Assembly: GCA_019248265.1 (NCBI GenBank)
Contig: JAEHGX010000002.1
Location: forward strand, 1-64,000
DNA length: 64,000 bases
Reading direction: 5' to 3'
Origin: Candidatus Falkowbacteria bacterium S5_I03
GTDB lineage: Bacteria; Patescibacteriota; Patescibacteriia; Patescibacteriales; UBA12465
Shown: positions 1,954 through 31,101 of the stretch, in pieces
Layout: the number at the start of each line of letters is the position of its first letter
Numbering within the stretch: position 1 is the first letter of the stretch
Position numbers and translations under genes: made by a program
The notes under the pieces: model-generated
Database searches by the model: none
The model's input: only the letters and a program-made list of their open reading frames with translations
Told to the model about the DNA's origin: nothing

Positions 1954-2523
1954 TTATTTTTTAATTATTCTTACTATCCCCTTATCGGCGTCCACTTCTA
2001 CAAAATCTCCGTTTTTTAATAATCTGGTAGCATTCTTCGTTCCGATTACGCAAGGCTTTTTCATTTCTCTGGCCAGTATCGCGGCGTGGCAAGTTATTCC
2101 GCCCTCATCGGTCACAAAAGCGGAGGCTTTCTTCATGGCCATCACCATACTCGGAGTAGTCATGGAGGCAACCAAAACTTCTCCTTTTTTAAAATTATCT
2201 AAATCTTTCGGTTGAGAAATTATTCTCACTCTTCCCTTGCTAAATCCGGAAAAAGCAATGCTGCCGGCAAGGCTGTTACCGATATTCTTCTCAGAACATA
2301 ACTTTTTAAATTTGTTAACCTGTTTACCGGAAACTATTCCAATTTGACCGTGGCTAAGAAAGGCTACAAAATCTTTTTTTCTATTTTCCAAAGTTTTAAC
2401 GCTCGGTATCTTACGGCTAAGAATTTCGTTATATAAACAATACGTCAAATCATCATATGATAAGCCAAGATCAGCGGCAAAACCATCTAAAGCCTCAAAC
2501 CAGGAAAAGAAAACTTGATTCAT
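1954..2523 (-). CDS. C-terminal fragment of broken swivel-domain paralogue
   Basis: A 189-aa open frame holding the swivelling phosphohistidine domain (EGGITCHAAI, His146 of the fragment; PCVIGT; GDFVEVDADKG). Its frame stays open upstream of the ATG to about 2568, and the extra codons read YYRTHRTDV, which matches RTRRTDV in the intact neighbour. The annotated ATG is therefore internal to an ancestral longer protein. It overlaps the upstream fragment by ATGA, so coupled translation as a separate small protein is possible. Confidence 0.6.
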   Translation of the reverse strand: MNQVFFSWFEALDGFAADLGLSYDDLTYCLYNEILSRKIPSVKTLENRKKDFVAFLSHGQIGIVSGKQVNKFKKLCSEKNIGNSLAGSIAFSGFSKGRVRIISQPKDLDNFKKGEVLVASMTTPSMVMAMKKASAFVTDEGGITCHAAILAREMKKPCVIGTKNATRLLKNGDFVEVDADKGIVRIIKK

Positions 2524-3161
2524 AACATCTGTTCGGTGAGTCCGGTAATAAATAAAAATTGCATCACGTCAATATAATAACTCTTATTTTTTAACAATTT
2601 CTTGGCCCTAATAATCGCTTTTTTAGTATCCAAGCGGCTACCGCCATCAAGAAAATCCTGGTCTTTCTTCAGGGATCTTAAAATTGCTTGCGCTTGTTGA
2701 CGAGTTAAAAATTTGCGGACGCCAAAACGGGAAAAATTCCAAGAATGATTCTTAATAAAATAATCTATATCTTCGGTTTTTAACAAACGTCTTTTGGCTA
2801 TTTGGTCTAAATTAAAATCAAGCGGCAAATTAATATGGGACATTAGGGCTTTAGCTTCGCTTTCAGTAGTTACTTTTAGTAGTTCCTGCCTAATCACATC
2901 TTCAATAAAATCATCACAAATATGATATAAAGATAATGTAGGCTGATATTCAAGATAGTTTTTAAAAAAATCGGCAAAATTAACTATCTTTTTTTTATTA
3001 ATATCTTTTAAAATCAGATTCTCTCGTCTTAAGGTCTCTTTCTTTAAATATAGAAAATTTTTTTTATCTTTTAAAATATGCCTAGCGGCTTTTTTGGCGA
3101 AGTTATCTAGATGATATTGCGGATAATAATATACGCCATCAATCTCAATAACATCCTGCAA
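2520..3161 (-). CDS. Middle fragment of broken swivel-domain paralogue
   Basis: A 213-aa open frame starting with TTG at 3161, helical and charged, with no domain of its own. Its N-terminal residues align with the region around residues 40-70 of the intact 435-aa paralogue (DGVYYYPQYHLDNF against EGHWYWSDEIFDS). The same frame continues upstream past an in-frame TAG at 3189-3191 to an ATG at 3293. It ends by running out of frame near 2570. Probably not an independent gene; see the pseudogene entry. Confidence 0.5.
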   Translation of the reverse strand: MQDVIEIDGVYYYPQYHLDNFAKKAARHILKDKKNFLYLKKETLRRENLILKDINKKKIVNFADFFKNYLEYQPTLSLYHICDDFIEDVIRQELLKVTTESEAKALMSHINLPLDFNLDQIAKRRLLKTEDIDYFIKNHSWNFSRFGVRKFLTRQQAQAILRSLKKDQDFLDGGSRLDTKKAIIRAKKLLKNKSYYIDVMQFLFITGLTEQML

Positions 3162-5125: not shown

Positions 5126-6277
5126 CTACTTTATCGCTTTTTTCAAGGCTAAAGCTTTGTCGGTTTTCTCCCAAGGAAAACCAACGCGCCCAAAATGTCC
5201 GTAAGCAGCCGTCTTTAAAAAGATTGGCTTCTTAAGACCGAGTGTGTCAATAATTGCTTTCGGCCTAAAATCAAAAATGGCTTCCACGGCTTGTAAAATT
5301 TTAGTATCGGAATATTTATTAGTACCAAAAGTATCAATATAAATTCCCACCGGCTTAGCAACGCCAATGGCATAAGCAACTTGCAATTCGCATTTATCAG
5401 CTAAGCCCGCGGCCACAATATTCTTAGCGACATAACGCGCCATATAAGCGCCGGAGCGGTCTACTTTAGAGGCGTCCTTACCGGAAAAACAACCGCCGCC
5501 ATGACGAGCATAACCGCCATAAGTATCAACGATAATTTTGCGACCGGTTAAGCCGGTATCGGCTCCGGGGCCACCAAAAGTAAAAGCGCCGGTCGAATTA
5601 ATAAAAATTTTAGTTTTCTTGTCTAATAATTTTCCTAAAATCGGTTCAATCACTTGTTTTAAAATATCGGCGCGCACTTTAGCTAATTTTATTTTAGAAC
5701 TATGACAGGCGGCAATCACCACAGTTTCCACGCGCACCGCCTTCCCGTCATGGTATTCAACCGTAACTTGTGATTTTCCATCCAGTTTTAAATAAGGCAG
5801 AATTTTCTTGTGGCGAACTTCAGCCAAGCGGGCAGCGAGCTTATGAGCTAAAACAATCGGCAAAGGCATCAACTCCTTAGTTTCATTGGTCGCATAACCG
5901 TACATTAAGCCTTGATCACCAGCTCCCTGTTCTTTATGTTCGCCGTTACCTTCATCCACGCCCTGAGCGATTTCCTGGCTTTGCTCATGCAGAGCGGAAA
6001 CAATTCCCACACTATCACAATCAAAACCCGATTCGGCATCGCTATAGCCGATTTTCTTTAAGGTGCGGCGGACAATTTCATCAACTTTAACATATTCTTT
6101 AGTTCTGGCTTCGCCGCCGACTACAACCAAGCCGTTAGTCACGAAGCATTCCACGGCCGCATGACTCTCGGGGTCATGGGTTAACATCTCATCAAGAATG
6201 CTATCGCTAATCTGGTCGCAAACCTTATCCGGATGGCCTTCGGTCACTGACTCGGAAGTTATTAATTTAATATCCAT
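5126..6277 (-). CDS. metK: S-adenosylmethionine synthetase
   Basis: 383 aa, the usual length. It makes SAM from methionine and ATP. All family signatures are present: [12 protein letters not shown] at residues 14-25 (His15 is the ATP-binding His), [12 protein letters not shown] in the first third, and [18 protein letters not shown] in the last third, where the usual Ala of GGGAFSGKD is Cys. The start is clear because [11 protein letters not shown] sits where it should. The other SAM-cycle genes (ahcY and a PfkB kinase) lie just upstream on the same strand, separated by an inserted exported-protein gene. A plausible promoter with an overlapping palindrome precedes it. Confidence 0.97.
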
Positions 6278-6393: not shown

Positions 6394-6422
6394 AAAAAGG
6401 ACATCCGTGAGAATGCCCTTTT
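6394..6422 (-). terminator. Terminator of the T9SS-domain gene
   Basis: On the minus strand an 8-bp stem (AAGGGCAT with ATGTCCTT, one G-U) and an 8-base loop are followed by TTTTT. It lies about 35 bases past the stop of the gene ending at 6457 and closes that unit before metK. Confidence 0.65.
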
Positions 6423-6456: not shown

Positions 6457-7797
6457 CTATTGCTTGATAAGCTTTAAAGTTTGTTTTTTATTTGTTAAAA
6501 AATAGATTCCCTGCTTTAAACCAACCAGGGAAATGCGGTTATCTCCAGGTTCTATGCGAATCTGTTTGATAACTGTTCCAAGAACATCGCTGAGAGTGAC
6601 AATCGCTTCCGAACTGGTTTTAATAGTCAATTCGGAATTGAAAGGATTAGGATAGGCTGAAAAATTATCAGCTTTTTCCCAACCAATAACGGCATCAGGA
6701 ATGGCCTGAGCTAAATCGGTGCGAGTAGAATAAATCTTCCCGTTATTACCGATGGCCAGGATGGCGTCAGCATTATTACTATCAGAAATATCAATCATCA
6801 TGTTCAAGCCGGAGCTTTGAATTCTTTGGACAATGATCCGGTTTTTAATAATAAATCCATTTTTACCATTAGGATCACCACCGACATGCCAAAACTGCGA
6901 ATGTCCTGAAGTAATTAATGAAGATTTAATAGATTGATCCGGTGTTAAATCGGTAAATTGATAAAAATTAGTAAATTCATTGAACTTGGCAGATGGTTCA
7001 ACTGTGGATTCATAATTATAACTACCCGCTCTTTGACTGTGAAATGAAACTAAGCATTTTTTCTGATAAGAAGCGACACTGGAAATAGAATCAAATGATG
7101 ATACGGAAAACTTAACGTCAACATAAGAGTCTGGTCCTGTAAGTTGAGCAAAACCCAAACCAAATATTGGAAAATAACCATTAGTTCCATGACTAATTCC
7201 TCGAGCATAAGTAATAATACAATCACCATCTTTATGCCCGCCTAAAAAAGCCAGTTGCGCAAAACTCCAGTCAAATAATCCATAGCCCTGAACAGGAAGC
7301 CCGGAATTCATAAAACGAAAATCTTGCCAAATGGCAAATTGGTTAACTTGCATGAAGGCAACAATTGAATAATACCAGTTATCCATCGGGATTATGGCAC
7401 AAATTGGAGTGTCATGAAGTTTCCCAGAGGCATCCAGGGCTTCAAAAGGAAAATCCTTAAAAGTCGCGCCGTTATCGGTGCTGTATTTCAATAAGTCATT
7501 TTCCTTTCCTCCGGAGAGGAAAATTAGAGAGTCGTTCACGCGCGTAGCCAAATTAATGGTGCGTTTTTTAATGGGGTCTATATCGAGCTGTTTCCAGCTC
7601 TGACATTTATCTTTGGAAACAAAACCGAGGCCTTGTTCGCCGAAGATATAGATAGTAGGAGAACTGGCCCCTCCTACTGCGGGCGTGTTTATGGCACATT
7701 TTAGATTAACGGCTGTCGGAGAGTTTACTTCCAACACCTGGGCGGTGGCAATCTGGGTTATAAACCCAAAAAACGCCAAAAATAACAGATTTTTCAT
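6457..7797 (-). CDS. Secreted protein with type IX secretion C-terminal sorting domain
   Basis: A 446-aa exported protein. Residues 1-19 are a clear signal peptide (KNLLFLAFFGFITQIATA, cleaved before Gln). Residues from about 382 to the end form a T9SS type A sorting domain: YPNPFNSELTI, LSDVLGTVIKQ, GLKQGIYFL and a terminal LKLIKQ. The middle part has sialidase or photosystem-stability-factor-like WD/Asp-box flavour (repeated short strands with SxDNGxTF, and a GNNGKIYSTRTD segment), suggesting a beta-propeller; this is an inference. T9SS is a Bacteroidota system that uses an outer membrane. The gene has its own promoter and terminator and splits the SAM-cycle genes, consistent with insertion or transfer. 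Confidence 0.8.
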   Translation of the reverse strand: MKNLLFLAFFGFITQIATAQVLEVNSPTAVNLKCAINTPAVGGASSPTIYIFGEQGLGFVSKDKCQSWKQLDIDPIKKRTINLATRVNDSLIFLSGGKENDLLKYSTDNGATFKDFPFEALDASGKLHDTPICAIIPMDNWYYSIVAFMQVNQFAIWQDFRFMNSGLPVQGYGLFDWSFAQLAFLGGHKDGDCIITYARGISHGTNGYFPIFGLGFAQLTGPDSYVDVKFSVSSFDSISSVASYQKKCLVSFHSQRAGSYNYESTVEPSAKFNEFTNFYQFTDLTPDQSIKSSLITSGHSQFWHVGGDPNGKNGFIIKNRIIVQRIQSSGLNMMIDISDSNNADAILAIGNNGKIYSTRTDLAQAIPDAVIGWEKADNFSAYPNPFNSELTIKTSSEAIVTLSDVLGTVIKQIRIEPGDNRISLVGLKQGIYFLTNKKQTLKLIKQ

Positions 7798-7853: not shown

Positions 7854-7882
7854 ATAATATAATATTACTCAAAAAATGTCAA
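7854..7882 (-). promoter_or_regulatory. Sigma70-type promoter of the T9SS-domain gene
   Basis: On the minus strand a consensus TTGACA (7877-7882), a 17-base spacer and TATTAT (7854-7859, 5 of 6). The leader would be about 50 nt. This is one of the best housekeeping promoter matches seen in the window. Confidence 0.7.
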
Positions 7883-7914: not shown

Positions 7915-9168
7915 TTAGGTTCCTGACTCCCAACCGGCGAGATATTCTGCCTGTTCTTTGGTTAATTTATCAATCTGGATGCCTAAGGATTTTAATTTCA
8001 AAGCAGCCACTTTATTTTCAATCTCTTCGGAGACGTTATGGACTTTAATATCTAATTTTTTCTTGGCGGTCGCGACCGCTTGCGCGGCTAAGGCTTGAGT
8101 GGAAAAACTCATGTCCATCACGCTCGCCGGATGACCTTCGGCGGCGGCTAAATTAACTAAGCGTCCTTCGGCAAGCAAATAAATTCGTTTGCTGCCGACT
8201 AAATATTCATCAACATTTGTCCGAACTTGTTTAGTTATCTTCTTGGACATTTTAGCCAGTGCCGGAATATCAATTTCTACGTCAAAATGGCCAGAATTAC
8301 AAACCATCGAGCCGTCTTTCATGTTTTTAAAATGAGTAGCGGTAATAACATGCTTGTCGCCAGTAATTGTACAAAAAATATCACCAACCTTAGAAGCTTC
8401 ATTCATAGTCATTACTTGGAAGCCGTCCATGGCCGCCTCAAGAGCTTTAATCGGGTCAACTTCGGTCACAATCACTTTAGCCCCCATACCACGGGTGCGC
8501 ATAGCAAAACCCTTACCGCACCAGCCATAACCAGCAACAACCATATTCTTCCCTGCCAGTAGAACGTCAGTCGCTCTAATAATCCCGTCTAAAGTTGACT
8601 GCCCAGTACCATAGCGATTATCAAACATATTTTTGGTCTTGGCGTCATTAACTGCAATCACCGGCAATTTTAATTTCCCTTTCGCCTCCAGAGCGCGCAA
8701 ACGAATAACCCCGGTAGTTGTTTCTTCCATGCTACCTAAGATATTTTTGGCGTCTGCTTGATATTTGTTATGAAGCAAGGAAATTAAATCAGCGCCATCA
8801 TCCATCGTAATCTGGGGTTTATTTTTTAAAGCCAAATTTAGATGCTCATAGTAAGTTTTATTATCTTCCCCACGAACAGCCATTACTTTTATGCCATGGT
8901 TCTTAACTAAAGCGGCCGCAATATCATCTTGAGTTGATAAGGGATTAGAAGCAACTAAAGTAACATCAGCTCCACCAGCTTTCAAAGTTAGCATTAAATT
9001 AGCCGTTTCTGCGGTCACATGCATACAGGCGGAAATTCGCTTATTTTTAAAAGGCTTGGTTTTAGAAAATTCCGCTTTGATAATATTTAAAACCGGCATA
9101 TCCTGCCCCGCCCATTTTAAACGCTTTTCTCCGGCCGCGGCCAGTCTAATATCTTTAAGGTGGCTCAT
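7915..9168 (-). CDS. ahcY: S-adenosylhomocysteine hydrolase
   Basis: 417 aa. It splits SAH, the product of SAM-dependent methylation, into adenosine and homocysteine, using bound NAD. Visible features are DDGAD (substrate-binding Asp), [26 protein letters not shown] with the catalytic Lys/Asp/Asn, and the Rossmann GYGWCGKG with the acidic residue after it (VTEVDP). The end, [16 protein letters not shown], is of the short archaeal/Thermotoga-like type, not the KPxxYRY tail of longer bacterial forms. It overlaps the PfkB-type kinase gene by ATGA. That pairing fits removal of the product adenosine. Confidence 0.95.
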
Positions 9169-11135: not shown

Positions 11136-13733
11136 TTAACTTTGAAAAGACGAGGCTTTATTATATTTATCATCAAAATTTTTAATAGCGGTAATTTTCC
11201 CTAAACGTTCAGCAATCGTTTGATCTAAGCTTTTTGTGGCGCCCGCGGGAACAATACTAAACTCAGCAAGCAACCTGGCATTTTCCGGTTTATGAATAGC
11301 ATCATAAACATATTTGGCGGCACTTTCATTCATGGTTTCAATATTTTTCATACCTGGTCCATTATTAATCGATTGTAGCTTTAAAATACCGCCTAAGTCT
11401 AAATGAAAATCGCCTTTTTCATCATGATAACCATATGCTAAACGATTATTATTTCTAATAAAGGCTTGTAACTGCTGCTTTCCGGTTTCAATATCCCTAA
11501 TTTCATGATGTTCTTTGTCTGTAGTTTCACGCCACTTGCCATTATCCATCGAATAAGCGCTAGTTGCTCCCCAATGATTTGTCCCTTTGTTTATTTCAGC
11601 AATTTGACTACCTAAACTAAAAGCCTCTTGCTGGTTAAATCCAGCGTAATTTTTAGATTTCTTATCAGACAAGTCCCTCATCATCTGCTTTAAGCCGATG
11701 TGATCAGTCCTGCCAGCGAGTGGCTGCAAAAATTCATTATCGTTACCATCTTTAGACATTTTAAGCATCACAGCTTTTACCATATTGCGATCATGGGAAG
11801 CTATGGCCCCTTTTAACATGCGCAACAACTCGGTAGGATCATCAATATCGCGTAGATCACCCATTTTCTTTTGAACAGCTGTCTGTTCAGCCAATCGGGA
11901 TTGTCGATTATATTTAGGAATATTAGCCGCAACTTTTTTATCCAACTCATCAATATTACTTTGTCTACTTTTAATTTCTTCCCGAGCCGCAAACTTTTCT
12001 TGATCACTGAAATTCTTGCGCAAATTATTACCAGCAAACCTGGTTTGTTCGGAATACTTGCTTTCCTTTTCTTCAATTGCCAAATATTCATTATCAGCCT
12101 CATCTTTTTTGGCCTTAAGCTCAGCAATTTTATCAACATCCTTAAATTGTCCCCTGGCTTCTTCAGCTGATATCTGAGTCTCTAGCGATTGGCGCCGATT
12201 ATTAACAGCGGCCTTATCTTCCCGAGCAATTTCATTCTCCAAGATGCTTTCATCAAGCATCTTCTGTCTATCTTCAGCATTGGCATTTATAAATTTATTT
12301 TCAAACACACTTTGATCCAATCTTTTTTTTTCATCGCTTTTTTTAGAAAGGGCTGCTTCTTTGGCCACATTCATTCTTTTTTCTCCCTTCAACTGTTTGA
12401 TAATTCCAACTGGTTTTATGCCTTTCCAGTCAGAAAGCCTATCCCAAGCATCGGCCGGTCCGGCGGTCATTGCCATTGCTCCAGCAAATCCACCCTTGTT
12501 CATTCTGTCTCCAGCAGCTGTTAAACCGCGAACATACTGATCGTTTTTCTTTTCTTTACGACGCGCTTGCATGCCAGCCCAGGCGCGCTTTAAATTTAAA
12601 TCAACAATTCCTTTTTCTTGTAAAAATTTGTCATTAGCCCAACTAGCCGGGGTTTTGACCCCCTTCCAAGCCAATAAACCAGCTCCCGCGGCTGCGCCAA
12701 TCGCTAATTTATTGCCCGCACTGGATATCTTCCCAGCCACACCAGCGGCCGCGCCGCCGATTTCTTGAGCAATCTTCATACCGCCCAAGAGCATGGCGAT
12801 AGAAATCACAAACTTAATCATGATATCAGTAGTTCCCTTTTTACAAACACCACTCTCATCTTGCTGACAAGTAATCTGATTAGGGTCTTGCAGGCTACCG
12901 TCGATATCTAAACTTTGATTATTAAAACTAACGAGAGAGGTAAATGACAACCAAATAAAGAAGGCTAGAACTGGACCGACAATTAAGTTCTTGGTAAAAT
13001 CGCTCCACCACATTGAGGAATATTTGGAACCGCCCGGAAAAGCTGCCAGTAAATATGCGAAGGGAGACAAAACAACATAAACCCAAATCATAATAATGCG
13101 CATCACGAGCATTCCTAACATGGCTGTTACCGTAATAAGCGCAATGGCCGAATAAATAACTGATAGAACAAAGGCCCCGGCTACTTCCCAACTGCTAACA
13201 TCTTCAAACCCGTCCAGTTTCTGCCAACCGGTAATGCCCAACATATCAACCAAGCCGCCGGCCATCACATCCTTAAAAGCATTAACAAAAGTTAACATTA
13301 CTACTTGAGCAACATCAATTAATAGTCCACAAATAGTCTTGGAAAAATTTATTAAGATTGCCATCAAAATCAACTTCGGCAACCACTTCTTATAACTATA
13401 ATTTTCCAAACGTAAAATTGTGCCAAAAGCGATAACCAAAAGAATTATCACAAAAAACATATTGGAAATATCGCGGGCAATCACCCAGCCATTAGCGACC
13501 GCGGCTGCATGGATGAAGTTGTTATACTGAGCAATATAAACCAAAACAGCCATTACTTTCGCTAGAATCCAACCCAGGACTGATGCTATACCGGAAGCTA
13601 AACCTCCGACCACCGTGGTCACCCAATCGGCGTGCGCCGCCTGCGGCAAGAGTAAAACTAAAGCCGCCAAAAACAAAATTACCGACAGGGCTTTCTGGTG
13701 ATTATTAAATTTTAGTTTCCGTTTGAAATTCAT
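11136..13733 (-). CDS. VirB6/TrbL-like polytopic membrane protein with long cytoplasmic tail
   Basis: 865 aa from the ATG at 13733; a TTG 18 bases upstream is possible but would overlap the previous gene. Residues ~15-35 are a signal-like hydrophobic segment, and six or more further membrane segments follow to about residue 350, including long runs such as FFVIILLVIAFGTIL. The pattern resembles VirB6/TrbL channel subunits of type IV secretion systems. After a Gly/Ala-rich stretch (AAGVAGKISSAGNKLAIGAAAGAG) the remaining ~500 residues are charged and partly coiled coil (many K/E/D/Q-rich heptads), presumably cytoplasmic. It sits in an operon with the giant Cys-rich protein. Similarity to VirB6 is by topology and context, not a catalytic motif. 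Confidence 0.65.
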   Translation of the reverse strand: MNFKRKLKFNNHQKALSVILFLAALVLLLPQAAHADWVTTVVGGLASGIASVLGWILAKVMAVLVYIAQYNNFIHAAAVANGWVIARDISNMFFVIILLVIAFGTILRLENYSYKKWLPKLILMAILINFSKTICGLLIDVAQVVMLTFVNAFKDVMAGGLVDMLGITGWQKLDGFEDVSSWEVAGAFVLSVIYSAIALITVTAMLGMLVMRIIMIWVYVVLSPFAYLLAAFPGGSKYSSMWWSDFTKNLIVGPVLAFFIWLSFTSLVSFNNQSLDIDGSLQDPNQITCQQDESGVCKKGTTDIMIKFVISIAMLLGGMKIAQEIGGAAAGVAGKISSAGNKLAIGAAAGAGLLAWKGVKTPASWANDKFLQEKGIVDLNLKRAWAGMQARRKEKKNDQYVRGLTAAGDRMNKGGFAGAMAMTAGPADAWDRLSDWKGIKPVGIIKQLKGEKRMNVAKEAALSKKSDEKKRLDQSVFENKFINANAEDRQKMLDESILENEIAREDKAAVNNRRQSLETQISAEEARGQFKDVDKIAELKAKKDEADNEYLAIEEKESKYSEQTRFAGNNLRKNFSDQEKFAAREEIKSRQSNIDELDKKVAANIPKYNRQSRLAEQTAVQKKMGDLRDIDDPTELLRMLKGAIASHDRNMVKAVMLKMSKDGNDNEFLQPLAGRTDHIGLKQMMRDLSDKKSKNYAGFNQQEAFSLGSQIAEINKGTNHWGATSAYSMDNGKWRETTDKEHHEIRDIETGKQQLQAFIRNNNRLAYGYHDEKGDFHLDLGGILKLQSINNGPGMKNIETMNESAAKYVYDAIHKPENARLLAEFSIVPAGATKSLDQTIAERLGKITAIKNFDDKYNKASSFQS

Positions 13734-13740
13734 ATTTATA

Positions 13741-14421
13741 TTAATTGGCAATAGCGCTAGTAGCTACGCCCCAGATAAGACTAAACTCAGAGGCATAAAA
13801 TCCTATTGGGTCTTCAATTAGTTTTACTAAAAGAACAATAACAGCGACGATGGCAATAATTACAATTAATAAAAGCAAATCTAAACCAACTAATACCATC
13901 GACTCGCCAATATTGGCGCAACTACTTCCATTTTTAATAGTTATATAACCAGACTGTCCGCCAACAATAGCATTAACTGATTTAGCTCCACCCGATATAC
14001 CTCCGGTCGTCCACTCATCTCCCAATTTACAGAAAACATCTTTACCTACTACTAGACTCAAGAAAACATGAATATTTATCCAGATTAGCGTTAGCCCCCA
14101 ACTGGGGATTAAGTTAATCCAAGCATCTTGCAATAACTTACTGGTTCCCTGGCGCATCGGCACGGCTGCTTTTTGTTTTAAGCCGCCACCAGATTTAGAT
14201 TCCTCAGCCGCTTGTTTTCTTTTTTCAGCAATAACGGCTTCTCTTAAAGTTTGTGGCTCCGTAGCCGATCCATCTTCAACGCCGGCGCTATTCCTTTTGG
14301 CCTCATTCAAAGCCCCGGCTTTAGCCGCACTGTTAGCATCGCCATCCTTTCCCATTAGGCGACTATCAAAATTGGAATCAAAGCCGGTTCCGGAATTGGA
14401 GCGGTCGTCGCTGGTCGCCAT
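13741..14421 (-). CDS. Hypothetical membrane protein of the T4SS-like cluster
   Basis: 226 aa. The N-terminal ~95 residues are polar, low complexity and probably cytoplasmic. Two membrane segments follow: one around LIPSWGLTLIWINIHVFLSLVV, and a strongly hydrophobic one (LLLLIVIIAIVAVIVLLV). Between them are a few Cys residues and a Gly-rich stretch, likely outside. No known family is recognised. It lies 6 bases from the giant Cys-rich gene and 7 bases from the VirB6-like gene, so a structural role in the same assembly is likely but unproven. Confidence 0.6.
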   Translation of the reverse strand: MATSDDRSNSGTGFDSNFDSRLMGKDGDANSAAKAGALNEAKRNSAGVEDGSATEPQTLREAVIAEKRKQAAEESKSGGGLKQKAAVPMRQGTSKLLQDAWINLIPSWGLTLIWINIHVFLSLVVGKDVFCKLGDEWTTGGISGGAKSVNAIVGGQSGYITIKNGSSCANIGESMVLVGLDLLLLIVIIAIVAVIVLLVKLIEDPIGFYASEFSLIWGVATSAIAN

Positions 14422-14427
14422 ATTTAA

Positions 14428-17400
14428 TTAATTACTCTTATTATCCCAATTGTCCCAGATGTTAACGATAATATTTTTATCAGGGTTTGAATTTCCACTC
14501 TTAGGGCTAATGGCATCCGGACCATAATAATGATAGAAGACATGCGGATTATTAGAATCACTTCTTTGGTCTTGGCCGGTAATGGCCTGCTTACTGCCAT
14601 CACCCCAATTAATATAAATCATCTTGAGCGGCTGCTGTTCAGGGTTGACTACAGTGTTAAATTCTAAGCTGTAGACACCGGAAGTGCTGACTGTCATGTT
14701 TTGGTCTGCGCCATTAAATTTTAGTTTTACATTACTAACAGTTGGCAACGTCCCATTCTGCCCAGCTGGCGGCAACCAACCACCGTTATCATCCGGCAAA
14801 TAGCTGCCGGCTTGATACTTAAAGGCACCGTAAGATTGTAGAAAAAGCTCGCTTAAGATTTTCTTGGTAGTCGTAGAATCGGGTGCTGATGTCCATAATG
14901 GTCGGCAGACACCGAAGCCACCATCAGAACAAGTCTTTCTATTTATATAATCACTATCAGCTTCGGTAGTCTGAATAGTCGTTGTACAGCTCGTAGTTTC
15001 TGTTTTACAAGTACCATTCTGATCAACAACCCAGGTGCACGCACCATCAATATCACAGTTATAAAAGTCATAACCCCGGCACAAATAATTACTAGTATTG
15101 TTCAAGTCTTCGCAATGAGCATTTTCGCCTGTACAAACCATATTGCTGGTTGAACAATTATCATAATAACTATTGCAGCTAACTCCGGAATCCGTATAAG
15201 TTGTTGAACAATTCTGGCTAGAAGTAACTCCTACAGGATTAAACACACACATAACGCTCGGATTTTCACTGCAGTAACCGATGTTATTGCAGGAGGTGCC
15301 CGTGCAGCCATAAGGGCGACCACCAAATGCTTTAGCGTTATCTTTTTGATAATACTGATTTTGCAGATAAACCGGGCCGCTATTTAATAAGTCATAGCTG
15401 CTTGGTAAAACCGAGGAGCCAAACGGCACGCCATTACGCAGGCGCCCATACAAATTCAAACCATTGGCGGCGGCAACATTATTAAAGAAAGCCGGGGTAT
15501 TCGTAGCATAAGCGGGGTCAGCTAAGATTCCGGTTCTGCCGGTCCAAGCTTTATTATCGCCATTACCGGCAACTACTTGCGCAAAACTACTACAAGTAAA
15601 ATTAAAGACATCACTGCGGTCACCATTAACAGACGCTAAATATTTCAAACCAGATTCATCAAAAGCGGGATAATTATTATCATAGATTCTAATTGGAGGA
15701 TCGGCATTTTTAGCTTCATCAATTGGTTCGCACTGGCCGGAAGCAGAATCACTACATTCCCGAACAGTTTGAGTAATAAACTTACCGTCATATTTTACCC
15801 AAGCGGATTCAAAAAACTTAATGTTAGCGCAGGTGGTGCCGGCAATACCGCCAGCAAATTTTAATGATTGCGCGTTAGTTTCCGGTCCGACGCCAAAAAG
15901 GAAATTGGTGCCGCCCTTGGCAGTTTCTCTGGGGACACAATAAAGATAATAATTATTCCAATTATCACTGCCCTCAACGTCATCTAATAAAATCCCCCGA
16001 TAATTTACCGAGTCACCACAATAGGCGGCCACAGTACTAGTCGCCAATTCTTTACACTGTTCGCTTTGGACGCCATCAATCAATGTCCAGCCGTCTTTAA
16101 GCTGACGATTATAAATAAGCTTGGTCGTAATTTTCTTAGCAAAGGAAATATTAGAATCAACATTTGTACAATAGCTTAAACTTGTCGGACCGGAATAGCC
16201 TAAACTTTGGCGGCCCAAAACCGAGGAACTAACCCTATCAGCCGGATACCAACTAGTACAAACTGAAGGATTATCTTTATCATGTTCTAAACAATACCCT
16301 TCTAAACCATCTTTGATAACATTAGTGCTTTGATTTTTACAGCTCAAACTGTCGTTGGTTGGATACAGACGACATTCACGCGCCGCATACTGATTATTTC
16401 CCATATCCAAAACCGGTTCAATATTAATATCGTCAAAATAAATTTCCCCAGCCTGAGTATTGTCAGAGGAAAGCCTAATTCTTACTTGAACATTATTAGA
16501 ACCGGCATTACCGGAGTTAAACTTACTTATCTTTCTAGCCCAACCATTAGGGCTTTCAACTGTAAATTGGGTAGTTGTGACCGAGCCCTTAACTTCAATA
16601 GTAATTTTAGCGCCAGCACTGGAATTTTTGGTGTTCACTAAATAATTCAAATAATAATCCTGATTAGGAGACAAGTTAATCCAAGAGTTAGCGGACATCG
16701 GATAAACATTATAGGTTGAAGGCACTTTCAAATAGCTCTTGCCGGAAACAGGGTAATCAACCGTCGCTTTTTCCGGCTCACGAATTATTAAATTCTTAAC
16801 AATACTATCAAACAAACAAGGACCACCAGTAACAGCACGAACACAAGATAAGGGCGGAATAATTTCTTCGAAATCATAGTGAGCTTCACTATTCAAACCA
16901 ACTTCCTTCATGTTGCCAATATTATTTGGCGTCAAGGAGCCAGCACTCAGAGAGGAATAGCCGGTAGCATTTTCTAAAGGCGGAGGGGTGGCATTAGGAA
17001 TAAAGTTGTTACATTCGCCTTTATCGTTAAGACTGTTGCATTGCTGCAAGGAATAACAAATCTTGGCTCCAGTTTCGGGGTCGGTGGCGTAAGTGGTGCA
17101 TCCTAACCAGCTAGCACAAACTCTATCCGGTCTAACTTTTATCAGCTGGTTGGCGGCGCAAGAACCACTAATGGCCGAGTCACATTTTTCCGGAGAACGT
17201 TTTTCCAGCGTTGCATACGGGTCAAAAGCGCCGGTTAATTTGGAGTAGCTAATGGCCGCCGGGGTGCTACTGGAGCTGGAAATTGTTCTTTCGTTAAACA
17301 AAATACAACCGTTACTAAAATCTTCGATACCATTACAACTTCCTTTATCTAAAGCATTTTCCAATTGATAGCCAATAGCTGCCTCTCTCAAATCAGCCGA

Positions 17401-20400
17401 GTTAGGGGATACTGTAACTGTAGTATTTTCAAAAGAATTAAAGACAATCGCCTTAGTAGTGGCGCTGATTGATAAGCGGGTAACTTCACCGCTATAATTA
17501 TTATCAGCGAGAAGATACCTGACGGGAGACGTAAATGTTATAGCCGGAATACTTGAATTATTCTTACGCTCTATAACATAAAGGGTGTTCTTTTTTAATT
17601 TTGTCGGCTCGTTAGTAACCGAGATATTCAAATTAGGATTAAGCTTGCTTACCGGATCAATATATTCACTGCAGGTTGAGGCTTGGATTTCACACAGCGC
17701 CGCTTCCTTGCTTGGAACCGGAACCCGATTGCCCTCGCCGCCTAAACCGATAGTTTTCAAATAAGAAATCTCGCAAGGATAATCGTTATTATCAATAATA
17801 CAAGGTTTGCCGGCACAATCATTAGTGCTTAAACAGCTTGGATAATTCTTTTCAGTGCCAGTAATTTGACCGTTGGAATCAGCATCGCAACGTTTAACTG
17901 GCGCTAAATACCAACTCTTCTGGGAAGCGGTGGTAGCCGCAGTTCCTGCCGAAGCATTACGATAAACGCAAACTTTATTTCCCGGGTCGCGGAAATAGCT
18001 CAAACCGCCATCTTCAACGTCCTTCCATTCCTCGCAGCCAACGCCTTCTTGGCCGCACAAAATAGTATCATATTTATTAGGATTGTTTTTCTTGAAGACA
18101 TCAGAATAAACTTTGCCGGAACCGGAAACTTGAGATTGACCCAATAAGCTACAGCCTAAGTCAGCCTGATTACACTGCTTGCTCTTATCATAGATAACAT
18201 ACATCGCACTATCCGCCTTAACTTTAGTACAATTCAGCTCGCTAGCATCGCATTGGCCATTGCGATTATCATCACCCCAAAGACCGGCGCCGTAGGGGGT
18301 ATAATTTTGGGTGCCAATTACCTGTTCGCAGCCGACCGAAGCTGAATCGCAGATACCGGAGAAAGAGCGGAGATTATGATTGACGCTGGCACGGTCAGAA
18401 TAAGCCGCGCACCCTAGATTATAATCCGCACCCTGATAAGTATCATAAATATCGTAGAAACAAACATTAGGGATTTGGCTGGAATTCTTAATCAAATAAT
18501 AACGATCGGTAATTTCCGTTAAAATAAAGTTATCCAAATAGAAATTACCATTAGCGGTTACCGCTAAAATTTCGGTGGCCGTCACTTCATGATCTAAATT
18601 ATCTAAATTAGCGGAGTAAACTTGCCAAGCACCGCCGGCAGCCACTCGAAGCGTATTTCCATTATTAAAGGAGGCTTTGGCGCCAGTATCTTTATTATAG
18701 AAATAAAGCTTAAGATCCGCACCGCCAGCCGAACTCGCTAAGAACTTAACACTGTATGATTTTCCTTGAGAAACGCCATTACCGACTTTTAGTTGAGCGG
18801 CCATATTATCACCGGCAAAAATCTGCTTAATAAGCGGACTGCTCTTAGCTAAAACGTGGGTATCGTTACCAATCGCCGAACAAGCGCTAGCGCTATTATT
18901 ATATAATAATGAATGACCATTTTTGCTGTTGGAAATAGCGGCTAAGCTAATGCCATTAGTACAATTGGATGTCCAAGCGCTAGTATTATTTTCAAAATCA
19001 TAAGAAGAAACTAAGCGGACATTATTACCGGTGTTACCATTATATTCACGGCAACCATTATCAGCCGCGCTACAAGTTTTCCCTTCTCCGGGGATACCTT
19101 GATAAACACAGGCTTGATGAGTATTGTCCCAAACTCCGCCATTCACGCAGACAGCGCAAGCGCCCGCGGCGCTATCCCAATGTTTTTCAACACCGGTACA
19201 TTGAGCCTGCGGAAATTGAGGATCATAATTTTTATCGGTCATGCGATAAGCGCGGCAATCGTCAGAACAAGTAATTACTCGGGAATTTAAGTGATAGAAG
19301 ACTTGGCCGGCAGCATTATAAAATTCACGGCAATCAGCATTGTAAAGAGCGCTGGTGACCGGGGCATTGTAAATAGCGGCGTTACACAAAGCGCTATCGT
19401 TAGAAGTTACGGCCGGTCCGTTATTGTTAGTATCTTGTTTTAAGTTGGATAATTTTAATTGATAGCCATTATCTGTGCCCTCCCAAGAATAGAAACTAGC
19501 GCAAGTTGTTTGGTTTGGTTTAACACATTGTTTTAAAGCCGAGTAGTATTCTTTCTGTTCGCCTCCGGCTGCAACATCGTCCAAATTAGTAAACTCGTTG
19601 CAACCAACCGCTTCTGCATTACAAGTCTTGGCGGTTTTAGGAATTAAATTCTCGGCTGTCGGGGGGTTAAAATAAGTTTGTCGAGAAACATAAACATCAT
19701 AACCGACACATTCTGAAGGACAATAATCAACATTGGAAACTTTGGCCGGAACCGAGAAGACGTTATTTTTAACTGACTTAAAGAGTTCGCAGCCAACTTC
19801 TTCCGAAGAACATTTACGGGCATAATTTGCGCATTTGGCTGGGGCATTCGCTTTCAAATGATAACTTAAACCGTCAGCGCTGGTTTCATAACAAGCACTT
19901 TCCAAATAAGGAGGCAATAATTTTTGATAAATCTTGGAAGCGCCGTAAGAGCTATAACCGGTATCCCAATCGCTCATTTCGAACTTAATATTCTTAACAT
20001 ATACGACTACTTGTCCGGAGGCTGAGGCAGTTATGGAAAACATTAGCTGACTGAGGCTGCTGGCCTTTCCGACAACGCTCGCGTGCTGCCAAGAACCTCT
20101 GGTGCTTGTTTGATAAACCGCTTGGTTAACGCCGGCCGGACCGATAGTGAGCTTAACATTATTACCAGTCGCTAAATAAACATCAGCGCTTAAAGTATAA
20201 GATTGGCCGACAACCAAATCCAAATTAGCCGGCAACAAGGAATTGCTGGAATCGGAAAATACCGAGACGACGCCGGTGTTACTGGATAATTTTAAGGCCT
20301 TACCACTAGCAGCGCCTGGTTCAACCGCGCTGTCAACAATTACAGCCTGGAAGGAACCGCCAGCAGCTAAAGGCCAAGAATTCAAAAAAGAATTGGTTGA

Positions 20401-22599
20401 AGAGGCTCCGAGCGCTTCGCCGCTAAAATCGGAGTCCATCACTAAATTGGCGCCCCAAGTAGGCTTAATTCTAATAAATTCGGAACAGCCCTCATCTTTA
20501 GAAGAACAATTTTCAGCATTTTTATTCAAATAAACATTTTGGGCCGGATTCCAAGTAATGATGCCGCTAGCTGAACTATAAGAACCATTATTAGAATATT
20601 CCTTACAACCGGCATTTTCTAAACTACAATTACCATAATCAAGGGTATTTTCCAAATACGCAATTTTTTGGTTGGAGGAGGTGTTGGTAAAAGCCTGGCA
20701 AGTATTGTTAACCGGGGCGCAGGAATCGCCATCAAAACTCCAAGTTCTCTTCTCTTCATTACAATAACCGAAAGCATCGCAACCGCCACTGCTGTTTTCT
20801 TTGATACAGCTTTGGTTATCGGCACAATAATCTTCCGCGCGCACTACTGAAACTTGGCTAGCAACATATTCGCTATATTGAGTAGCCGCCTGTGAAGGAG
20901 TGACATTTTTATTTAAAATTTGAGCGCTAACACCATCTTTTTTACAAAAATTAAGCGGCGCTTTCAAAACCCAATTAGGGTCGACCAGGCCGGTGCACCA
21001 AGCCTGATTAGTCGCATCAAAGTCAGAACTAAAGGTGCTATATTCATCATCAGGCGCAAAACAAGAAACTAAATCTCCCAAAGTTGCCTTGGTTTTATTA
21101 TCCGGGTTAGCAATATTATAATTTTTAATTTTTTGCAAAGCGGTTTCCCAACTGAGTGGCAAAATACGGAATTCTCTTAAAATAGCAATATTACGCCAAG
21201 AATAACTGCTTTCATAACTGCCCGGTAAACTATCAACTGTTAATTGCCAGTCACCATGAAGGTAGCCGCTAGCAATCGCTTCAGCGACAGTCTTTTTCTC
21301 GGTTATTCCCTGCATTAATTTATTGTCGATCACGCAGTTAGTTGGGCCCGGATTATTTTTATCGGGACAAGTAGCTAATTCTGATAAAACATCGTATTGG
21401 GAACCGTTGCCGAAGTTAGGCGTAATAAGTTTAGTAGTCACGGCCTTAAGCGCCACTTCGCCGCCGCCGGAACCAGGGTCGCTTTCATTAGTGGTCCCGG
21501 TAATAGCAGCCGTGCCGGCAGTTTTCTTGCCGATATTCTGCATTAAATTATTGAAAGCAGAAATTGCGAGTTGATTTAGAAAGACATTGGCAGCATCAAC
21601 AAAAGCATCGCCGGTATATTTACCAAAATTAGCGGCGTATTCAGCCGATTTAGATTCAACCTGAAGTTGGGCGGCATTAGGCAGAGTTTTGGAAGTGCCG
21701 CCAATAGATAGAGAGTCAAGCCAACCACCTTTACCTACTAAGGTAGTATTGGCCACTGATTTAGCCTCAATTTTTTCACCCATCATGTCAGTGCTCGCGG
21801 TCCAATAAATTCCTAAATCGCTGGAAGTTGGGTCAAACAAGCTAGGCAAAGTTTTTTCCAAGAAATCAGGACTGGTAACATCTTTATATTTAGCGGCGGC
21901 ATCGCTCCAATTCTTAACCATTTGCGAAGCGGTACAGCTTGGTCCTTGAGGACGATTTTGGTTAGCTAAGCCCAGACCGATTTTAACCTTAGACTCTAAA
22001 GATGAAGGCTGGCAAAAATTAACGGTGAGACCGCTTGATTTAACGCCGGCGGCGCAACTGTTAGCCGTTTTTTGACAAGCGGCATTACAATTTAAAGCTT
22101 CTGTAGAATTTGATTGTCCTAAATAACGACTAGCGCATTTACTGAGACAGCTTTGATAATCCTCGGTACAACCGGCCGTGCTGTTACTGCCCTCGGAATA
22201 ATTGTTAGCAAAATTTTCTAAAAAGGTTCCCGCTGCTTCATCGCCGATTTGCGCCATATAGGCTCCCCAATCCTGAGTAACAAATAATGGCTTTTGCCCT
22301 TGCCCACCGGAACCAACCCAATTGGCGGTATCGTAGGCCATTTTGTTCAAAGCGGTTCTAAGTGTTTGCTGGAAAGCGAGTGAAGCGCTTTTTTTCAAAA
22401 GATCTCCCGATATCTTGGTGATCTTGTCCCAAATTAATTTGGGGATATCAGTGACGACCATCTGCGCTCTGGCGACTTTTATTGGAACCAGCGCGACAGT
22501 AAAGATTAAAACACAAAACAGCACAAAAACTTTAATTTTTTGGCTTAAAGCTTGATGCTGCTTCTTTGGAAATAAAGAAGGCTTCATTTTATTCTTCAT
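14428..22599 (-). CDS. Giant Cys-rich secreted surface protein (2723 aa)
   Basis: The largest gene here. Residues ~20-45 are a signal peptide ending in ARA-Q. A helical region follows with a CxxxC-rich segment near residue 150, then a very long Cys-rich, Gly/Ser/Asn-rich ectodomain. At least eight copies of C-x5-G-C followed by an acidic or polar residue and an aromatic (for example CSSKDEGC, CNAEAVGC, CDSASVGC) lie between about residues 655 and 1525. Three beta-rich segments look like CBM-type carbohydrate-binding modules (about residues 720-880, 1190-1370, 1900-2065). Near the C-terminus, INWGDGS marks a PKD-like domain. It ends in a short polar tail without an obvious anchor. It is adjacent to VirB6-like genes. 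A surface adhesin or host-contact protein is an inference. Confidence 0.7.
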   Translation of the reverse strand: MKNKMKPSLFPKKQHQALSQKIKVFVLFCVLIFTVALVPIKVARAQMVVTDIPKLIWDKITKISGDLLKKSASLAFQQTLRTALNKMAYDTANWVGSGGQGQKPLFVTQDWGAYMAQIGDEAAGTFLENFANNYSEGSNSTAGCTEDYQSCLSKCASRYLGQSNSTEALNCNAACQKTANSCAAGVKSSGLTVNFCQPSSLESKVKIGLGLANQNRPQGPSCTASQMVKNWSDAAAKYKDVTSPDFLEKTLPSLFDPTSSDLGIYWTASTDMMGEKIEAKSVANTTLVGKGGWLDSLSIGGTSKTLPNAAQLQVESKSAEYAANFGKYTGDAFVDAANVFLNQLAISAFNNLMQNIGKKTAGTAAITGTTNESDPGSGGGEVALKAVTTKLITPNFGNGSQYDVLSELATCPDKNNPGPTNCVIDNKLMQGITEKKTVAEAIASGYLHGDWQLTVDSLPGSYESSYSWRNIAILREFRILPLSWETALQKIKNYNIANPDNKTKATLGDLVSCFAPDDEYSTFSSDFDATNQAWCTGLVDPNWVLKAPLNFCKKDGVSAQILNKNVTPSQAATQYSEYVASQVSVVRAEDYCADNQSCIKENSSGGCDAFGYCNEEKRTWSFDGDSCAPVNNTCQAFTNTSSNQKIAYLENTLDYGNCSLENAGCKEYSNNGSYSSASGIITWNPAQNVYLNKNAENCSSKDEGCSEFIRIKPTWGANLVMDSDFSGEALGASSTNSFLNSWPLAAGGSFQAVIVDSAVEPGAASGKALKLSSNTGVVSVFSDSSNSLLPANLDLVVGQSYTLSADVYLATGNNVKLTIGPAGVNQAVYQTSTRGSWQHASVVGKASSLSQLMFSITASASGQVVVYVKNIKFEMSDWDTGYSSYGASKIYQKLLPPYLESACYETSADGLSYHLKANAPAKCANYARKCSSEEVGCELFKSVKNNVFSVPAKVSNVDYCPSECVGYDVYVSRQTYFNPPTAENLIPKTAKTCNAEAVGCNEFTNLDDVAAGGEQKEYYSALKQCVKPNQTTCASFYSWEGTDNGYQLKLSNLKQDTNNNGPAVTSNDSALCNAAIYNAPVTSALYNADCREFYNAAGQVFYHLNSRVITCSDDCRAYRMTDKNYDPQFPQAQCTGVEKHWDSAAGACAVCVNGGVWDNTHQACVYQGIPGEGKTCSAADNGCREYNGNTGNNVRLVSSYDFENNTSAWTSNCTNGISLAAISNSKNGHSLLYNNSASACSAIGNDTHVLAKSSPLIKQIFAGDNMAAQLKVGNGVSQGKSYSVKFLASSAGGADLKLYFYNKDTGAKASFNNGNTLRVAAGGAWQVYSANLDNLDHEVTATEILAVTANGNFYLDNFILTEITDRYYLIKNSSQIPNVCFYDIYDTYQGADYNLGCAAYSDRASVNHNLRSFSGICDSASVGCEQVIGTQNYTPYGAGLWGDDNRNGQCDASELNCTKVKADSAMYVIYDKSKQCNQADLGCSLLGQSQVSGSGKVYSDVFKKNNPNKYDTILCGQEGVGCEEWKDVEDGGLSYFRDPGNKVCVYRNASAGTAATTASQKSWYLAPVKRCDADSNGQITGTEKNYPSCLSTNDCAGKPCIIDNNDYPCEISYLKTIGLGGEGNRVPVPSKEAALCEIQASTCSEYIDPVSKLNPNLNISVTNEPTKLKKNTLYVIERKNNSSIPAITFTSPVRYLLADNNYSGEVTRLSISATTKAIVFNSFENTTVTVSPNSADLREAAIGYQLENALDKGSCNGIEDFSNGCILFNERTISSSSSTPAAISYSKLTGAFDPYATLEKRSPEKCDSAISGSCAANQLIKVRPDRVCASWLGCTTYATDPETGAKICYSLQQCNSLNDKGECNNFIPNATPPPLENATGYSSLSAGSLTPNNIGNMKEVGLNSEAHYDFEEIIPPLSCVRAVTGGPCLFDSIVKNLIIREPEKATVDYPVSGKSYLKVPSTYNVYPMSANSWINLSPNQDYYLNYLVNTKNSSAGAKITIEVKGSVTTTQFTVESPNGWARKISKFNSGNAGSNNVQVRIRLSSDNTQAGEIYFDDINIEPVLDMGNNQYAARECRLYPTNDSLSCKNQSTNVIKDGLEGYCLEHDKDNPSVCTSWYPADRVSSSVLGRQSLGYSGPTSLSYCTNVDSNISFAKKITTKLIYNRQLKDGWTLIDGVQSEQCKELATSTVAAYCGDSVNYRGILLDDVEGSDNWNNYYLYCVPRETAKGGTNFLFGVGPETNAQSLKFAGGIAGTTCANIKFFESAWVKYDGKFITQTVRECSDSASGQCEPIDEAKNADPPIRIYDNNYPAFDESGLKYLASVNGDRSDVFNFTCSSFAQVVAGNGDNKAWTGRTGILADPAYATNTPAFFNNVAAANGLNLYGRLRNGVPFGSSVLPSSYDLLNSGPVYLQNQYYQKDNAKAFGGRPYGCTGTSCNNIGYCSENPSVMCVFNPVGVTSSQNCSTTYTDSGVSCNSYYDNCSTSNMVCTGENAHCEDLNNTSNYLCRGYDFYNCDIDGACTWVVDQNGTCKTETTSCTTTIQTTEADSDYINRKTCSDGGFGVCRPLWTSAPDSTTTKKILSELFLQSYGAFKYQAGSYLPDDNGGWLPPAGQNGTLPTVSNVKLKFNGADQNMTVSTSGVYSLEFNTVVNPEQQPLKMIYINWGDGSKQAITGQDQRSDSNNPHVFYHYYGPDAISPKSGNSNPDKNIIVNIWDNWDNKSN

Positions 22600-28955: not shown

Positions 28956-30125
28956 ATGAAAGCCAAAAACAAAAATCAACATCAAGGCCAAGAAATTTTG
29001 GAAGGTTCCCGCGCCATTGCCTTAACGGTTAATAATATCGGGCCGGAAGTCGTTTCCGCTTATCCGATAACGCCGCAAACTCATATTGTCGAAGACTTGG
29101 CTAAGTTTAAAGCCAACGGCCAGGCGAATTTTGAATATGTGCGCGCCGAAAGCGAATTTGCCGCCGCTTCAATTGTTCTTGGAGCGAGCGCCGCCGGAGC
29201 GCGTGTTTACAGCGCTACCAGTTCCCAGGGATTATTGCTCATGGCTGAAGTTTTATACAACATTTCCGGCATGCGCTTGCCGATAGTAATGACTTGCGCT
29301 AATCGAGCCATATCTTCACCTATTAATATTTGGAATGATCATAGCGATGCGATGGCTGTCGCTGGCAGCGGCTGGTTGCAATTCTTCGCCGAAAATCATC
29401 AAGAAGCCGTTTATCAACATTTACTCGCTTATAAGGTCGCAGAAAAAATGAATTTGCCGGCACTCGTTAATGTTGACGGTTTTATTTTAACGCATTCTTA
29501 TGAACCGGTAGCTATTCCCAACAAAAGTTTAATTAAAAAATATCTGCCGGCCAGAAAATTGGAAGCAGGAACTTTTTTAGATACCAATAATCCGGTGACT
29601 ATGGGTGGCTTTTTTTCGCCTAATGATTATTTAGACACCCGAAAGGATATCTGCCAAGACTTTGACACTAGTTTGGCAATTATTAAAAAGGAGTATCTTA
29701 ATTTAAAAAAAATATTTAAGTTCAAAAATAACGGCAATGGGCTAGTTGAATATTCAGGTGCCAAAAAACCAAAAATAATTTTAATCTGCATGGGCTCGCT
29801 TGCGGGGACTATTAAAGAAACCTTAAAAAAATATGCCGACGTCGGCTTATTAAAAATAACTACCTTCCGCCCCTTCCCGGCCGAAGAAATAAAAAAGGCG
29901 ATTGACCATTGCGTGAATATCGCTGTCATTGAAAAAGCAATTAATCCCGGAAGCGGCGGTCCTTTATATTTAGAAACGAAAGCGGCTATTTTTGGACACG
30001 AAAAAATAAATATCCAAAATTATATTGCCGGTCTGGGCGGGCATGATATCAGTGAAAAAATGATAGCTAAAATTATTAAAGAAATGCGCGGCCGCACAAC
30101 AAACAAAATAAAATTTGTTAATTAA
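28956..30125 (+). CDS. porA: Pyruvate:ferredoxin oxidoreductase, alpha subunit
   Basis: 389 aa. With PorB it binds thiamine diphosphate and oxidatively cleaves pyruvate to acetyl-CoA and CO2. Signatures: AYPITPQTHIVEDL near the start, AESEFAAASIVLGASAAGARVYSATSSQGL, and the domain II end with FRPFPAEEI and NPGSGGPLY. Its beta partner is not next to it: a pilin-like gene starts one base after its stop and separates porA from porB. Confidence 0.94.
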   Translation: MKAKNKNQHQGQEILEGSRAIALTVNNIGPEVVSAYPITPQTHIVEDLAKFKANGQANFEYVRAESEFAAASIVLGASAAGARVYSATSSQGLLLMAEVLYNISGMRLPIVMTCANRAISSPINIWNDHSDAMAVAGSGWLQFFAENHQEAVYQHLLAYKVAEKMNLPALVNVDGFILTHSYEPVAIPNKSLIKKYLPARKLEAGTFLDTNNPVTMGGFFSPNDYLDTRKDICQDFDTSLAIIKKEYLNLKKIFKFKNNGNGLVEYSGAKKPKIILICMGSLAGTIKETLKKYADVGLLKITTFRPFPAEEIKKAIDHCVNIAVIEKAINPGSGGPLYLETKAAIFGHEKINIQNYIAGLGGHDISEKMIAKIIKEMRGRTTNKIKFVN

Positions 30126-30126
30126 T

Positions 30127-31101
30127 ATGAAAACTAAACTGCCAAAATTAGTAATTAATTTAAGTTTTGGACTATTGGTCGGTTTTTCCTTATTGTTTCT
30201 GCCGGCCAGCTTAGCTCTTGCAGCCGATGCGATAAAATTCACGCCGCAAGTGGCTATTCCCGGATTTGCTACTGGGGCGGTTGATGTCGGTACAACCGTG
30301 GACGGCAAAATGACCAGTGATTTATTGGCTAGATATATCAAGGCAATGTACGACTACGGCTTAAAGGCCGCGGGGATTTTAGCAGCCGTGATTTTAATGG
30401 GCGGCGGTTTAATCTGGCTTACTTCCGCCGGCAATGAATCAAAAATCGGCCAAGCCAAGGAAATGATAGTTGGCGCGATTAGCGGCTTAATAATCTTATT
30501 TAGTGCTTGGTTAATTTTAAATACGGTTAATCCGGCGCTGTTAAGTTTGACGCCGATGAGCTTAACAAAGTTAACAGTTAACGCTGATTACTTAATAACT
30601 AATCTAGAAAATGCGCCAGCAGACATGAAATATGGCTGGATATGTATGAACAGTGCTGACCAGCGATGCGAAGATAATATTCCCCCGTCTATAAACTTGG
30701 ATACAAGTATTTGCCGATCTGGTAACCCCGCAAATCAGGAACCGACTGATTGTCTGTATAATCAAAAAAAATGCTGTGGCCAAAGCGCCATAGTAACCCA
30801 AACTGCGGATAATTTCTGTAAAGGCAAAGGTGATTATACCCCCTGCACATTAAATTCAACGGCTGTTAAAAAGGGATATTGCTACCAAGAAAAATGCATC
30901 AATACTAAAGTTTGCTGCCAGTGTGGACAAGGAGAGGTGGCAGGCGTTTATGTTTACGTGACTTGTAAAAATGACATTCTGCCAGACGAATGCGCGAGTT
31001 GGTGTGTAAACGGCTGGGTTGGTTCAAGTTATAAAATGTATGTGCCAAATTCGTCCTATTCTTGTGATGGCGGAGCGATGAGCTATTGTCAACAACAATA
31101 A
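30127..31101 (+). CDS. T4SS pilin-like (TrbC/VirB2-type) membrane protein with Cys-rich tail, copy 1
   Basis: 324 aa from the ATG at 30127, one base after porA. Residues 1-33 are a signal peptide ending ALAA. Two membrane segments at about 81-100 and 113-133 enclose a short polar loop (SAGNESKIGQAKEM), the layout of VirB2/TrbC and the Patescibacterial T4SS-pilin family. Unlike a normal pilin, ~190 further residues follow, with many Cys residues including CC and CxC pairs. The core is highly similar to the second copy at 31989-33575 (AAGILAAVILMGGGLIW against IAGILAAVMLMAGGLLW). Its location inside the por operon is unusual. Confidence 0.75.
   Translation: MKTKLPKLVINLSFGLLVGFSLLFLPASLALAADAIKFTPQVAIPGFATGAVDVGTTVDGKMTSDLLARYIKAMYDYGLKAAGILAAVILMGGGLIWLTSAGNESKIGQAKEMIVGAISGLIILFSAWLILNTVNPALLSLTPMSLTKLTVNADYLITNLENAPADMKYGWICMNSADQRCEDNIPPSINLDTSICRSGNPANQEPTDCLYNQKKCCGQSAIVTQTADNFCKGKGDYTPCTLNSTAVKKGYCYQEKCINTKVCCQCGQGEVAGVYVYVTCKNDILPDECASWCVNGWVGSSYKMYVPNSSYSCDGGAMSYCQQQ

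Follow-up and report, generated by a model that had tools for sequence, protein, structure and literature searches.

How does a gene whose product ends in the sorting tail of the type IX secretion system (T9SS), a tag regarded as having meaning solely for bacteria with an outer membrane, come to stand among the SAM-cycle genes of a Candidatus Falkowbacteria genome, and what could such a tail do there? The gene lies in a stretch of 64,000 nt, here called the window. The first-pass annotation had taken the genome for a Patescibacterial one, which it is (Patescibacteria, Falkowbacteria), and had described the gene as interrupting the SAM-cycle genes with a promoter and a terminator of its own. 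Both descriptions hold: ahcY and metK flank the gene, and promoter-like and terminator-like sites are present and are matched at the orthologous locus of a second genome of the same genus. We designate the genome of the window G000 and the second one G003; the latter is CP066698.1, a complete 977-kb Candidatus Falkowbacteria chromosome (locus identical over 7 kb). The features of the locus are as follows.

5126..6277, minus strand: metK (methionine adenosyltransferase), downstream flank; TIGR01034, 551.8 bits.
6395..6422, minus strand: terminator-like hairpin and T-run, with a 12-pair stem; the G003 counterpart also has 12 pairs.
6457..7797, minus strand: gene for a T9SS-tailed exported protein, an ORF of 446 aa with an ATG start, assigned from profiles and a syntenic orthologue in G003.
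6460..6672, minus strand: T9SS type A tail plus the six residues preceding YPNP, 71 aa, assigned from profiles and an AlphaFold2 model.
6673..7737, minus strand: passenger, with a weak sortilin/BNR-propeller likeness in residues 46-115.
7738..7797, minus strand: signal-peptide-like N-terminus MKNLLFLAFFGFITQIATA/QV, residues 1-20, assigned by inspection.
7854..7882, minus strand: promoter-like site TTGACA-17-TATTAT, 11/12 matches; the same site lies 5' of the G003 orthologue.
7915..9168, minus strand: ahcY (adenosylhomocysteinase), upstream flank; TIGR00936, 626.6 bits.

The tail occupies the extreme C-terminus of the protein (residues 382-446 of 446), where it matches TIGR04183 with 37.8 bits (cut-off 23, E 1.3e-9) and PF18962 with 34 bits (cut-off 27); since both scores exceed their cut-offs, the match is above chance. 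A structure of the full protein predicted from two sequences reached a pLDDT of 31, and we used the model of the tail alone, for which AlphaFold2, given the tail together with 33 relatives of the class, produced a seven-strand sandwich with a pLDDT of 95.4. The five solved structures closest to this model are all T9SS tails (mirolase, NucA, PorZ, FspA and PorU; Z 9.3-10.6), the first structure from outside the system following at Z 8.9, and T9SS tails also come first when the sequences of the PDB are searched with a profile of the tails. The likeness to T9SS cargo noticed at the outset is thereby borne out and, by sequence and predicted fold, the tail is confirmed as a genuine T9SS type A sorting domain (TIGR04183/PF18962). 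At the other end of the protein, the start reads, as judged by eye, as a Sec signal peptide with a typical ATA/Q end. The passenger between them resembles PF15902 over residues 46-115 with an E value of 3e-4, which is under the cut-off of that profile.

Comparison with related genomes shows the gene to be inserted. Five sibling species (G002, G004, G007, G008 and G011) have metK immediately after ahcY, and the tail gene stands between them in G000 and G003 only; because the two genes are adjacent in those five siblings, the tail gene is an insertion that predates the split of G000 and G003, and the simplest history is one gain in their common ancestor and inheritance since then. The empty site supports the transfer proposed in the first-pass annotation. 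The neighbours on both sides are the same in G003, with metK, ahcY and a nucleotidyltransferase 94-97% identical to those of G000; the two orthologues of the tail gene are 71% identical, a value that is made up of 85% for the signal-peptide-like N-terminus, 67% for the passenger and 88% for the tail. Among 145 relatives, a full-length orthologue of the passenger was found in G003 only, one more weak match spanning 85 residues. The gene is therefore not ancestral to the phylum, and the close vertical homologues throughout Patescibacteria that had been named as a possible refutation of transfer do not exist among these relatives. A scan of genome contigs for homologues returned CP066698.1 alone, a plasmid search for outside homologues of the window gene returned none, and a palindrome suspected of being shared 5' of metK is absent from the window. 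Elsewhere in the window, a gene of the PEP-utilizer mobile-domain type is split into two frames (1954-2523 and 2520-3161, minus strand) and corresponds to a single 445-aa ORF in G003 (L040:4859-6196).

An assembly chimera, named in the first-pass annotation as a possible refutation, or bin contamination deserves practically no credence and is refuted for the window gene. Some tail genes of relatives do come from contigs just 3-5 kb long, so that contamination is possible for them, although several others are carried on contigs of hundreds of kilobases. For the window gene, however, gene, neighbours, promoter and terminator are all the same in a complete 977-kb chromosome, and the presence there of an orthologue with the same neighbours excludes chimerism.

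The synonymous divergence of the window gene between G000 and G003 equals that of its neighbours (dS 0.98, against 1.06 for metK and 1.17 for ahcY). In the window gene the Nei-Gojobori dN/dS ratio of the tail (0.134) is below that of the passenger (0.22), as it is in a second tail gene shared by both genomes (0.081 against 0.20). Differences between the two species are rarer among the residues of the tail than among those of the passenger in the window gene (Fisher p 0.0004); the same contrast is not significant for the second gene alone (p 0.12) and gives p 5e-5 for both genes pooled with residues treated as independent, these Fisher values and the permutation value given below ignoring part of the relatedness of the genomes. 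Tail conservation was measured on these two species only, and what they show is purifying selection that is strongest on the tail. The first-pass annotation had also suggested a comparison of codon use with the neighbours; the codon use of the gene is not atypical, with an ordinary z score of -0.37, those of the other two tail genes of G000 being low (-1.98 and -1.84). Codon use is thus uninformative on transfer for the window gene, and the case for transfer rests on the empty site and the patchy distribution.

We then asked what the cell could do with such a tail, and found no component over cut-off of the secretion system to which it belongs. Omp85 (PF01103) matched over cut-off in none of the 145 relatives and in 7 of 14 control genomes; neither the genome of the window, which is 89% complete, nor the complete chromosome G003 had a match. 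G079 gave an Omp85 fragment of 18.8 bits with one stop, which we took as noise. PorU was likewise over cut-off in 0/145 relatives, two control genomes matching it, both under cut-off, and the sub-threshold matches in relatives were confined to model positions 892-1094, in its C-terminal part. For SprA/Sov and for PorV the count was again 0/145 over cut-off, with 0 control genomes matching either profile; a PorV fragment in G126 (26.5 bits against a cut-off of 250) was set aside as noise. The expectation that Patescibacteria have no T9SS thus agrees with the absence from 145 relatives of Omp85 and of any T9SS part over cut-off, SprA and PorV having been searched without a positive control and PorU without a true one. 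The outer membrane on which a functional T9SS cargo depends in its own cell, as judged from Omp85/BamA, was not found, and without Omp85 or a T9SS part over cut-off the tail cannot be a signal for export across an outer membrane there. We found no paper on a T9SS in Patescibacteria in the open-licence literature; PMC5596340, considered as a precedent from Parcubacteria, was discarded, as the tails that it describes are from SAR406.

The window gene had been treated as a singleton, which it is not. G000 carries three tail genes on three contigs: the window gene, one for a 264-aa protein, which adjoins a lipoprotein-like gene, and one for a GH16 enzyme with cadherin-like domains. Tails over cut-off occur in 42/145 relatives, compared to 11/381 genomes across the phylum. 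Tails from the same genome whose passengers have no detectable homology show a mean identity of 0.371, against 0.260 after shuffling the genome labels (p 0.0005, to be read with the reservation on relatedness made above), and the mean identity of tails between other genomes of one genus is 0.293. In the tail tree, both tail types of G000 and G003, which are attached to unrelated passengers, form one group (support 98/91). This likeness within genomes would be produced equally by a single donor or by adaptation to a single partner. The second tail gene (L006:11439-12859 on G000 contig C63, and L041:9082-10526 in G003) adjoins a lipoprotein gene of Bacteroidota style; this pair is syntenic in both genomes and evolves faster than its neighbours.

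A recurrent neighbour of tail genes in the class is a giant surface-protein gene, which in the window heads a cluster with genes of 226, 871 and 334 aa. The parts of the cluster that bear on the argument are these.

11136..13751, minus strand: membrane protein of 871 aa, VirB6/TrbL-like in appearance, with homologues at other tail-gene loci.
13741..14421, minus strand: 226-aa gene of the same cluster, the far-side marker of a variable slot in relatives.
14428..22599, minus strand: giant Cys-rich surface-protein gene, 2723 aa, with homologues in about 90 relatives.

A tail gene is the immediate 3' neighbour of the giant gene, in the same orientation and after a gap of 78-184 bp, in seven genomes that belong to three other genera (G073, G084, G088 and G101; G022 and G029; G019), and in G134 a tail gene is the convergent neighbour of the giant gene. 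About 0.08 such adjacencies are expected by chance (75 tails, 900 genes; within-genus relatedness ignored), and counting by genus gives P 3e-5. Within the family to which the genome of the window belongs, 13 genomes have in the same slot a short lipoprotein-like gene of Bacteroidota style, recognized by SC-[KEQ]-K-D following a hydrophobic stretch (12/13 by pattern, G038 by eye). Other members of the class have nothing in the slot or unrelated (small) genes, which makes it in part a general landing site; a recurring small protein with a start like MANIIPLEKIENKILLIRGQKVMLDRDLA fills it in many other genera (among L177-L222). The window tail gene is outside the slot, 6.6 kb downstream of the giant gene. 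Profile comparison of the slot passengers between genera gave no significant whole-length match, just a weak propeller-like stretch, and we therefore do not claim common descent for them. In G101, a BNR-propeller protein with no detected tail (L042:10040-11080), possibly a tail-less paralogue, is encoded two genes from the tail gene of the slot. No T4SS profile reaches its cut-off with the 871-aa protein; of its homologues, only that of G084 weakly matches the CD3337/EF1877 mobilome membrane protein (E 0.0013, under cut-off). Two T4SS_pilin (PF18895) genes over cut-off lie at 30115-31101 and 31989-33575, plus strand, interleaved with oxidoreductase genes.

The explanation that we favour, and hold to be somewhat probable, is that the gene encodes a horizontally acquired surface protein of Bacteroidota type in a cell that exports through Sec and lacks an outer membrane, and that its tail has been retained for a function outside the T9SS. 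The gene for a surface or secreted protein would have been taken up, with a bacterium of Bacteroidota type (FCB) as the most likely donor, and would have entered between ahcY and metK before the lineages of the two Falkowbacteria species parted. As the cells presumably have one membrane, the Sec pathway alone would suffice to carry the protein outside, where the tail would be neither a secretion signal nor a target for removal by PorU, and would remain as a folded Ig-like module binding a partner. This putative partner may lie in the surface layer of the same cell, where the giant-protein cluster is the leading candidate neighbourhood, or else on a partner cell. The class would have acquired proteins of this sort again and again, some with T9SS tails and some as Bacteroidota-style lipoproteins, and this recurrence, often beside the giant gene, hints at contact with Bacteroidota-like partner cells. 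In groundwater Patescibacteria, Bacteroidota are among the main outside donors (PMC12455944), and one sorted Falkowbacteria cell was accompanied by Cloacimonetes contigs (PMC8241940); these reports and the published facts on Bacteroidota surfaces make a role at a partner cell thinkable.

Selection could instead act on the passenger only, the propeller being wanted and the tail persisting as a folded C-terminal cap that stabilises it with no particular binding. We regard this as unlikely, if worth serious consideration: Ig-like modules are frequent C-terminal caps, tolerance predicts just such repeated uptake of different tail types, and tails of one genome could resemble each other through one donor, but a tail that serves just as a cap would be expected to change no more slowly than the passenger, whereas in both gene pairs no other part is as well conserved as the tail. 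It is more doubtful that the tail is read by a sorting machine of the Patescibacteria themselves, for example one linked with the giant surface protein and the VirB6/TrbL-like protein encoded next to it. The direct adjacency of tail gene and giant gene in three genera, far above the chance expectation, the clustering of tails by genome and the generality of a T4SS-like apparatus in Patescibacteria (PMC12102498) agree with such a machine; however, the slot also receives unrelated genes, most tail genes are elsewhere, and a sorting step at an outer membrane is needless in a cell with a single membrane.

The tail might also face a host, so that after Sec export the exposed PorV/PorU complex of a Bacteroidota-type host would bind the protein and perhaps cleave and anchor it. 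PorU and PorZ are located on the outer face of the Bacteroidota outer membrane (PMC8545088), both retain their own tails uncleaved, and substrates with uncleaved tails accumulate bound on PorV (PMC5562754); the conservation of the tails, their uniformity per genome and the association of Falkowbacteria with Cloacimonetes fit as well. Tails are known, however, to reach PorV from the side of the translocon and not from outside, and we consider this reading very improbable. Still less credit goes to its boldest form, in which an epibiont displays or sheds proteins bearing the host's own sorting tag, and the host's PorV/PorU docks them or anchors them covalently as glue; if this were true, the tail type of each Patescibacterium would name the phylum of its host.

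Returning to the acquired surface protein with a retained tail, which we prefer, a known tag is found here in cells that cannot put it to its known use, and is kept under selection where no outer membrane is detected. A tail that acts on a partner cell would help to trace the hosts of Patescibacteria from sequence; one that acts at the surface of its own cell would be a case of a T9SS tail with a different function. On both readings, calling a T9SS from the tail domain alone is an unsafe annotation, and the slot next to the giant gene is a concrete place for seeking host-interaction genes.

Compared with known systems, the window tail shares with the T9SS type A sorting domain the PNP start, the central G, the GxY motif, the K-rich end and the seven-strand Ig-like fold; it differs in being short, with a loop absent in comparison to most relatives, and in belonging to a cell with neither Omp85 nor a T9SS part over cut-off. 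The FlgD Ig-like C-terminal domain (PF13860) has a related fold, and the tails of some relatives overlap weakly with its profile, but the window protein matches PF18962 and has no match to PF13860 at E 0.001. The giant cluster recalls the monoderm-type T4SS of Patescibacteria (PMC12102498) through its VirB6/TrbL-like polytopic membrane protein, and the window holds the two T4SS_pilin genes; the resemblance of the 871-aa protein is one of appearance, and a connection between tail and T4SS is hypothetical. A parallel in architecture is the PorZ type of Bacteroidota cargo, in which a propeller-like passenger is likewise followed by a type A tail; the passengers of tail genes in relatives are PSII_BNR/sortilin-like, and the window passenger shows no sequence match to PorZ. 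PorZ, with two propellers and an uncleaved tail (PMC8545088), is a precedent for a tail that is retained, although it acts within an attachment complex of the outer membrane.
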